Source: Thermodesulfovibrio sp. 3907-1M (GTDB taxonomy: Bacteria > Nitrospirota > Thermodesulfovibrionia > Thermodesulfovibrionales > Thermodesulfovibrionaceae). From it: a stretch of DNA of 64,000 nt. Both the position numbers and the translations under genes were made by a program. Location of the stretch: positions 624,001-688,000 of the forward strand of contig NZ_CP144373.1 of NCBI RefSeq assembly GCF_040450955.1, written 5' to 3'. Below are positions 15,558 through 22,400 of the stretch, piece by piece (within the stretch, counting starts at the first letter, position 1; every line of letters starts with the position of its first letter). The notes beneath the pieces are model-generated. The model had not been told where the DNA came from. It did no database searches and saw only the letters and a program-made list of their open reading frames with translations.

Positions 15558-15590
15558 AATCAGAATAAAAACTTTTTGAATGGAGGGAAA

Positions 15591-15980
15591 ATGACTTTAG
15601 AAAACTACAAATTTCACAAAGAGCATACCTGGGTGAAACTATCAGGTAGAAGCAAAAAAGTAAAAGTTGGGATTACAGATTATGCACAGGAATCTCTTGG
15701 AGACATTATTTATATTGAGCTTCCAGAGGTTGATACTCATGTAGAAGCAGGTACTGAAATGGCAGAGATTGAGTCAACAAAAACATCTTCTCCTGTAATA
15801 GCTCCAGTAAGTGGCACAATCGTTGAAGTAAATGAAGAATTAATTGATCATCCAGAAATTATTAATGAAGACCCTTATGGAAAGGGCTGGATTGCTGTAA
15901 TTGAAATGGATAATACTGAGGAACTGGAAGATTTAATGGATTATGAAGAGTATGAGAGTTATCTTGAAGAAGAAAGATAA
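15591..15980 (+). CDS. gcvH: Glycine cleavage H-like lipoyl carrier protein
   Basis: H-protein carries the aminomethyl intermediate on a lipoyl-lysine. The 129 residues show YKFHKEHTWVKL, IGITDYAQ-type core (VGITDYAQESLGDIIYIELP) and the lipoylation site EIESTKTSSPVIAPVSG with its lysine. Start at ATG 15591 follows GGAGGG by 4 nt; an upstream in-frame codon at 15576 overlaps that site and is rejected. The acidic C-terminal tail is longer than usual. Its stop overlaps the next ATG by one base. No gcvT or gcvP is nearby, so it could serve another lipoyl system. Confidence 0.9.
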   Translation: MTLENYKFHKEHTWVKLSGRSKKVKVGITDYAQESLGDIIYIELPEVDTHVEAGTEMAEIESTKTSSPVIAPVSGTIVEVNEELIDHPEIINEDPYGKGWIAVIEMDNTEELEDLMDYEEYESYLEEER

Positions 15981-17302
15981 TGAAAGCCATTATAGTTGGA
16001 GGAGGACCTGCCGGTTATGTCTCTGCCCTTGTTATGAGAAGACTGGGGGCAGAGGTATTTCTTATTGAAAAAGAAGAAATTGGTGGAACATGCCTCAACA
16101 AAGGCTGCATTCCCACAAAAACAGTAATTCACAATCTTAAACATGCTTCTTCCTCTATGAATTTACAGATTTTAATGGAAAAAAAGGATAAAGTAGTTGA
16201 TACACAAAAAAAAGGACTTATGATGCTGCTAAAACAGGCAGGAGTAAAAATTATCAAATCCGAAGCAGAGTTAGTTAATCCAAAAACAGTTTTTTTAAAA
16301 AGCACAGGAGAAAAACTTCAGGCAGACAGGATAATTATTGCTACAGGCTCAAGACCCAGAGAGCTTCCAATGCTTAATTTTGATGGAGAAAAAATACTTT
16401 CAAGTGATGACCTATGGAAACTTAAAAAAATACCTGAATCTATCACAATCATCGGTGCAGGTGCTATAGGATGTGAGTTTGCATGGATATTTCATCTTCT
16501 CGGAAGTAAAGTTTCTCTGGTGGAACTGATGCCAAGAGTGTTACCTATGGAAGATGAAGATGTGTCCAGAGAAGTGGAAAAGCTTTTTAAAAAGAAAAAG
16601 ATAGAGTTTCATACGGGAGTAAAAATTGAGGATTTAAAAAAAATTGATAATTCAGTTCAGATAAGCCTCTCTAATGCAAAAAGTATATCCTCACAAGTTG
16701 TTCTTGTTTCTGTAGGAAGAGCTTTTAATACTGAGTGTATTCAGACTTCAGAGGTAAAGCTTGGCAGTAAAAAAGAGATTATTGTAGATGAGAAAATGCA
16801 AACAAATATTGAAAATATTTTCGCAGCTGGTGATGTTACCGGACAGTGGCTACTCGCCCATGTTGCATATAGAGAAGCAGAAGTGGCTGCAAAAAATGCC
16901 ATGGGATACAGCGAAAAAATGGACTACAGCGTAATACCATCAACAATTTATACAGTTACAGAAGTTGCCTCTGTTGGATTAAAGGAAGCTGAGGCAGTGA
17001 AAAAAGGAATTGATATTAAAAAAGGAATCTTCCCATTCAGAGCATCAGGCAAAGCTCACATTATCGGAGAAATTGATGGATTTGTTAAGGTAATTGCAGA
17101 TAAAGAATCTGACGCTATCATTGGAGCTCATATAGCTGGTGCAGATGCCTCTGAACTTATCCATGAACTTGCAATGGCTGTAAAACTCAAAGCAAAAGCA
17201 AGAGATTTAAAGGATTTAATTCATTCTCATCCTACCCTTTCTGAGTGCGTTGGTGAAGCAATTAAGGACCTTTTTGGTGAGGCAATTCACAAAATAAGAT
17301 GA
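15980..17302 (+). CDS. lpdA: Dihydrolipoyl dehydrogenase (E3)
   Basis: This flavoprotein reoxidises dihydrolipoamide with NAD+. The 440 residues show the N-terminal FAD site (IIVGGGPAGYVSALVMRRLG), the redox disulfide GGTCLNKGCIPTK, the NAD site (ITIIGAGAIGCEFAWIFHLL), a second FAD motif (ENIFAAGDVTGQWLLAHVAY) and the C-terminal catalytic HSHPTLSECVGEA. It is somewhat shorter than typical E3 (about 460-475). Translational coupling to the H-protein gene suggests that pair is a working unit. Confidence 0.95.
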   Translation: MKAIIVGGGPAGYVSALVMRRLGAEVFLIEKEEIGGTCLNKGCIPTKTVIHNLKHASSSMNLQILMEKKDKVVDTQKKGLMMLLKQAGVKIIKSEAELVNPKTVFLKSTGEKLQADRIIIATGSRPRELPMLNFDGEKILSSDDLWKLKKIPESITIIGAGAIGCEFAWIFHLLGSKVSLVELMPRVLPMEDEDVSREVEKLFKKKKIEFHTGVKIEDLKKIDNSVQISLSNAKSISSQVVLVSVGRAFNTECIQTSEVKLGSKKEIIVDEKMQTNIENIFAAGDVTGQWLLAHVAYREAEVAAKNAMGYSEKMDYSVIPSTIYTVTEVASVGLKEAEAVKKGIDIKKGIFPFRASGKAHIIGEIDGFVKVIADKESDAIIGAHIAGADASELIHELAMAVKLKAKARDLKDLIHSHPTLSECVGEAIKDLFGEAIHKIR

Positions 17303-22257: not shown

Positions 22258-22271
22258 TAGGAAAAATCTAT

Positions 22272-22300
22272 TTTACTTTTCGGAAATACTTATTTTAAAT
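22272..22300 (+). promoter_or_regulatory. Possible promoter of the tRNA gene
   Basis: TTTACT (22272-22277), a 17-nt spacer and TTAAAT (22295-22300) end 7 nt before the mature 5' end at 22308. Both boxes match consensus at four of six positions. Confidence 0.3.
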
Positions 22301-22307
22301 TTATCAG

Positions 22308-22400
22308 GAGGGATGTGGGACTGGTGTCCCTCCTGGTCTGCAAAACCAGTGATGGAGGACGATTTACTCCAGTGGGTTCAATTCCCACCATCCCTCTCCA
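22308..22400 (+). tRNA. tRNA with selenocysteine-tRNA architecture and Cys anticodon GCA
   Basis: The 93-nt sequence folds cleanly. Acceptor 8 bp: 22308-22315 with 22389-22396. D stem 5 bp: GGGAC/GTCCC, 22317-22321 with 22326-22330, loop TGGT. Anticodon stem 5 bp: CTGGT/ACCAG, loop CTGCAAA with anticodon GCA at 22340-22342. Long variable arm: stem TGGAG/CTCCA (22353-22357 with 22367-22371), 9-nt loop. T stem 5 bp: GTGGG/CCCAC (22372-22376 with 22384-22388), loop TTCAATT. Discriminator U at 22397, encoded CCA 22398-22400. The 8/5 helix, long arm and 4-nt D loop are traits of bacterial tRNA-Sec. GCA and U73 are the main tRNA-Cys determinants. Normal tRNA-Cys has 7/5 and a short variable loop. 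Confidence 0.93.

Follow-up and report, generated by a model that had tools for sequence, protein, structure and literature searches.

A selenocysteine-tRNA-shaped cysteine tRNA in Thermodesulfovibrio sp. 3907-1M, probably a bulge-free member of the published tRNA-ReC class

What is the role of a tRNA gene that combines the body of a selenocysteine (Sec) tRNA with the anticodon and discriminator base of a cysteine (Cys) tRNA? Such a gene is found on the plus strand at positions 22308–22400 of the 64,000-nucleotide stretch of Thermodesulfovibrio sp. 3907-1M DNA analysed here (the window). A first-pass annotation had offered two readings: a Cys tRNA with a Sec body, descended from tRNA-Sec and pointed to cysteinyl-tRNA synthetase (CysRS) by its U73, or a tRNA placing Ser or Sec at UGC/UGU codons. 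The present analysis supports the first and argues against the second, and adds a published reading that the annotation had missed, namely SelB-delivered Cys at Sec UGA codons.

Base-by-base reading of the 93-nt gene recovered each element of the anatomy that the annotation had drawn. The 8-bp acceptor stem, formed by GAGGGATG (22308–22315) and CATCCCTC (22389–22396), is joined to the D stem by a 1-nt linker, T22316. The D arm, GGGAC-TGGT-GTCCC (22317–22330), has 5 bp and a 4-nt loop; like the acceptor stem, it is seen in the sequence, in covariation and in folding. The anticodon arm, CTGGT-CTGCAAA-ACCAG (22333–22349), carries GCA at 22340–22342 and is supported by the sequence, ARAGORN and covariation. 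The long variable arm, TGGAG-9 nt-CTCCA (22353–22371), has five pairs, all five of which covary in relatives. The T arm, GTGGG-TTCAATT-CCCAC (22372–22388), has an unbroken 5-bp stem: alignment and comparison with the genome's tRNA-Sec place no bulged base 51a in it, and the 8/4 form with an unpaired 51a is thus absent. The gene ends with discriminator U73 (T22397) and an encoded CCA (22398–22400), both read from the sequence and the alignment. The acceptor/T branch is therefore of the 8/5 type (13 bp). An 8-bp acceptor stem and long variable arm constitute the Sec-like body of the published class described below, and U73 with GCA its Cys identity (the class permits UCA too). Neither the 7/5 branch and short variable loop of an ordinary tRNA-Cys nor the G73 of a tRNA-Sec anticodon variant was found in the gene.

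The fold was also supported by prediction programs. ARAGORN called 22308–22400 as tRNA-Cys(GCA). The Rfam tRNA-Sec model scored it at 60.8 bits (gathering score 47), whereas the general tRNA model gave 33.3 bits, the lowest score among the genome's 45 tRNAs. The 8/5 long-arm cloverleaf is the minimum-free-energy fold (−42.9 kcal/mol, z −3.6), a value equalled by none of 200 shuffles; an ordinary 7/5 short-loop fold, which would have spoken against the annotation, was not obtained.

The structure is maintained across the order Thermodesulfovibrionales. In an alignment of 17 copies from the order, 95.6% of paired cells were standard pairs under the 8/5 structure with 5-bp D, anticodon and variable stems. 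Double-sided changes were observed in 52 cells, compared with a shuffle mean of 16, and none of 500 shuffles reached 52. Fourteen pairs showed double changes, and sliding the partner columns by 1 to 3 positions destroyed the pairing signal. The compensatory changes fall in four of the five stems; the T stem is invariant in the 17 copies, so the alignment is uninformative either way on its pairing. A covariance model built from these copies recovered 72 genes at 70 bits or more in 68 of the 176 genomes of the order (hand counts of result rows), with tRNA-Sec genes at 62 bits or less. GCA was present in every ARAGORN-called copy, and GCA, U73 and CCA were constant wherever copies were read. Covariation, folding and the Rfam score together indicate neither a chance fold nor a lone pseudogene. 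Bulge 51a was absent from 39 of the 40 copies read within the phylum. The only bulged copy read in the phylum, its T stem carrying a bulged C, is the second tRNA copy of one genome (G135, contig C142; L107 2455–2551), and it adjoins a shortened third SelB of 524 aa. Copies of 127–132 nt, with a much enlarged insertion that is probably in the variable arm, were seen in G026 (C1:1469861–1469987), G064:C58, G066:C60 and G025:C27.

A tRNA of this kind has been described before. The name tRNA-ReC and the idea of a "safeguard of selenoprotein synthesis" reportedly come from Vargas-Rodriguez and colleagues in 2018. The class papers, Mukai et al. (2017) and Vargas-Rodriguez et al. (2018), are represented here by two reviews (PMC7609411; PMC11415595). 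Under the name selC* tRNA-Cys, tRNAs with the same identity elements have been reported in Firmicutes, Thermodesulfobacteria, Nitrospirae and Proteobacteria, along with an additional selB in two orders of delta-proteobacteria and, in Desulfobacterales, a CysRS variant that lacks the anticodon-binding domain (PMC7609411). The class is described as having an 8/4 form with an unpaired 51a, which was reported to be dispensable for charging by the variant synthetase, CysRS* (PMC7609411). The Desulfotomaculum nigrificans tRNA of the ReC type was reported to insert Cys at Sec UGA codons, with SelB rather than EF-Tu as its carrier (PMC11415595).

Does the Thermodesulfovibrio gene belong to this class? 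It is likely to be a tRNA-ReC (selC* tRNA-Cys) that is charged by CysRS, delivered by SelB and read at Sec UGA codons. The gene is real, conserved and probably functional, and differs from the published class by the missing 51a. Membership makes it a real kind of gene, but not a new one. Since the review holds 51a to be dispensable, the statement that this tRNA works like tRNA-ReC is firmer than the statement that it is a typical selC* tRNA-Cys. By analogy with the published work on a relative's tRNA, U73 and the GCA anticodon would let CysRS charge the tRNA with cysteine, and the 13-bp Sec-like acceptor/T branch would favour SelB as carrier in place of EF-Tu. Once docked on a SECIS hairpin, SelB would place Cys at the in-frame UGA of selenoproteins, such as the host formate dehydrogenase. 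The GCA anticodon is mismatched to UGA at the third codon position, and the proposed UGA reading therefore leans on the published work. Cys at UGA may serve as a back-up when Sec-tRNA is in short supply, which would rescue selenoprotein synthesis under low selenium.

The host genome, a complete 1.94-Mb contig (C1), encodes the partners that this mechanism would need. A canonical tRNA-Sec(UCA) with G73 is encoded at C1:1098077, an ordinary tRNA-Cys(GCA) at C1:1041664, a single CysRS at C1:1062606, and a single SelB, with its wing domains, at C1:1452867–1454705. The selB gene is not adjacent to the tRNA gene in this genome. Formate dehydrogenase FdhA contains an in-frame TGA (C1:830441–830443; context ARI-U-HS) followed by a strong SECIS-like hairpin of −24.1 kcal/mol, and this hairpin recurs in a second species. 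The tRNA is thus an extra one with a plausible UGA target available. The annotation had left open whether it was the only Cys tRNA or a specialised extra; the former is ruled out by the ordinary tRNA-Cys.

That ordinary gene also bears on the leading rival explanation, in which the tRNA is an additional Cys isoacceptor that reads UGC/UGU, receives its cysteine from CysRS and relies on EF-Tu as carrier, with its Sec shape a relic. GCA, U73 and the CysRS of the genome are all compatible with such a role, yet an ordinary tRNA-Cys is already present, covariation shows the 8/5 body and long arm to be maintained across the order, and the relative's tRNA was reported to operate without EF-Tu (PMC11415595). 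The tRNA moreover tracks SelB. Of 396 genomes sampled from the phylum, 63 carry the tRNA and 59 of these have SelB, versus 113 of the 333 non-carriers (Fisher p ~6e-20, a value inflated by kinship because all carriers belong to one class). Two of the four carriers in which SelB was not matched hold the SelB C-terminal domain, and the others are drafts (G045, G172). In five genomes (G054, G125, G129, G134 and G135; family f10), a second SelB is encoded tens of bases downstream of the tRNA on the same strand (L097 4625–6632, L099, L101, L103 and L105), and all five also encode a separate SelB elsewhere. This pairing of tRNA and second selB is the best evidence in the analysis for SelB as the carrier. 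The isoacceptor explanation is considered unlikely.

The second SelB proteins retain the residues aligned with Escherichia coli SelB D180, R181 and R236, which we take to be the Sec pocket; a literature search for these three residues as the Sec pocket found no paper. The notion of a second SelB without a Sec pocket was thus unsupported. In G054 and G125, the genes facing the second selB in convergent orientation are TusA/YedF-like and cysteine-desulfurase-like (both named by eye). Three of the five genomes also encode a CysRS-like protein of 414–429 aa (L243, L244 and L245; G129:C7, G054:C54 and G125:C47), and in G129 a protein of this type is the sole CysRS match. The match of this protein type ends at position 402 of the 466 in the CysRS model, so that the anticodon-binding domain is seemingly absent, and the shortened protein may be the published CysRS*. 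The bulge-free tRNA of Thermodesulfovibrionales, joined in some lineages by its own SelB copy and a CysRS without the anticodon-binding domain, might even form a complete second recoding machine that directs Cys to a separate set of SECIS-marked codons, beyond selenoprotein rescue alone; this extension of the tRNA-ReC reading is speculative and distinctly improbable.

A further rival holds that the locus is a pseudogene, or encodes a tRNA-like RNA that takes no part in translation and acts as a regulator or decoy. In one species of the genus (G001), the copy is decayed, with an acceptor mismatch and a shortened T arm, and was missed by ARAGORN (L049 1499–1595), although SelB and a UGA-containing formate dehydrogenase are still encoded there; several other Sec-using species of the genus have no gene. 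These cases indicate that the tRNA is dispensable, and could be taken to favour the pseudogene or decoy explanation. Against it stand the compensatory changes in the stems, the constancy of GCA, U73 and CCA in the copies read, and the conservation of the upstream stretch: about 50 bases (22258–22307, plus strand) are shared by four species of the genus, in each of which the same GH57-family gene precedes the tRNA gene. This explanation is considered highly unlikely, and the homologues in relatives confirm that the gene is not a lone pseudogene. Within the conserved stretch, a possible plus-strand promoter was read by eye, TTTACT (22272–22277) and TTAAAT (22295–22300) with a 17-nt spacer, ending ~7 nt before the tRNA; a consensus promoter and terminator scan of the plus strand called nothing, these motifs included. 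As to other neighbours, DksA-like genes (named by eye) were seen near the tRNA in two distant genomes (L097 6852–7271; L113 1232–1603), and a pair of GcvH-like and lipoamide-dehydrogenase-like genes in G054 and G125, as well as in the window about 5 kb upstream (15576–17302).

The weakest rival, a tRNA-Sec with a Cys anticodon of the Aeromonas salmonicida type that SerRS charges and SelA converts from Ser to Sec for SECIS-directed insertion of Sec (or Ser) at UGC/UGU, would account for the Sec-like body and long variable arm and has published precedents (PMC11415595), but is very hard to credit given U73 in the homologues read, where each tRNA-Sec read in the analysis has G73, and a canonical tRNA-Sec(UCA) in the same genome.

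How far does the Sec-shaped tRNA-Cys extend, and where did it come from? Among the matches listed by an exact-pattern search across public genomes, many are chance hits or tandem tRNAs; the clear cases include Carboxydothermus islandicus, an Ammonifex MAG, Desulforamulus aquiferis, Sulfobacillus thermotolerans, Desulfacinum, and Chloroflexota and Actinobacteria MAGs. All 18 of the carriers from other phyla sampled among the matches listed have a tRNA-Sec-type gene above the Rfam cut-off, with UCA and G73 read directly in 15. Desulfacinum-like copies (Desulfobacterota) show the published 8/4 form, with a 4-bp T stem and a bulged A; several Firmicutes copies have five T-stem pairs plus a bulge; and the Nitrospirota, Sulfobacillus and Chloroflexota copies read are plain 8/5 without a bulge. 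The idea that the T arm copies the shape of the same genome's tRNA-Sec was rejected, as in Desulfobacterota genomes the tRNA-Cys is 8/4 and bulged and the tRNA-Sec is plain 8/5. In a tree of 90 nt with the anticodon and discriminator masked, support for the split between the Sec-shaped Cys tRNAs and tRNA-Sec was weak (0.72), and that for a coherent Nitrospirota group was 0.89. On this grouping, the tRNA appears to be of old lineage rather than recently copied from the local tRNA-Sec. Descent from tRNA-Sec, as the annotation had it, is plausible, whereas the direction of descent does not follow from a tree that merely separates the two groups.

Overall, a cysteine-carrying alternative reader of selenocysteine codons appears to be widespread in this anaerobic phylum and to have been conserved there for a long time. 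The bulge-free form and the linked second selB are additions to the class that make the proposed SelB delivery testable in a cultivable thermophile.

How does this tRNA compare with known systems? This tRNA and selC* tRNA-Cys/tRNA-ReC, as the two reviews describe it, share the Sec body, 8-bp acceptor stem, long arm, GCA and U73, and occur alongside canonical tRNA-Sec, SelB and CysRS, with a second selB adjoining in some lineages and Nitrospirae included; the host tRNA differs in its 8/5 branch without the 51a bulge and in its non-adjacent selB. The tRNA-Sec(GCA) of A. salmonicida likewise joins a Sec body to a Cys anticodon, but the host tRNA has U73 instead of G73 and coexists with tRNA-Sec(UCA). 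Allo-tRNAs (8/4 and 9/3) also have an unusual acceptor branch and a long arm, but are Ser-type with a 12-bp branch (PMC7609411), unlike the 13 bp and Cys identity found here. The host's own tRNA-Sec (C1:1098077) shares the 8/5 branch, an identical T stem (GTGGG/CCCAC), closely similar sequence in the anticodon stem and the 3′ side of the D arm, and 67 of 90 aligned positions, and is set apart by UCA, G73, a longer variable arm and another acceptor stem.
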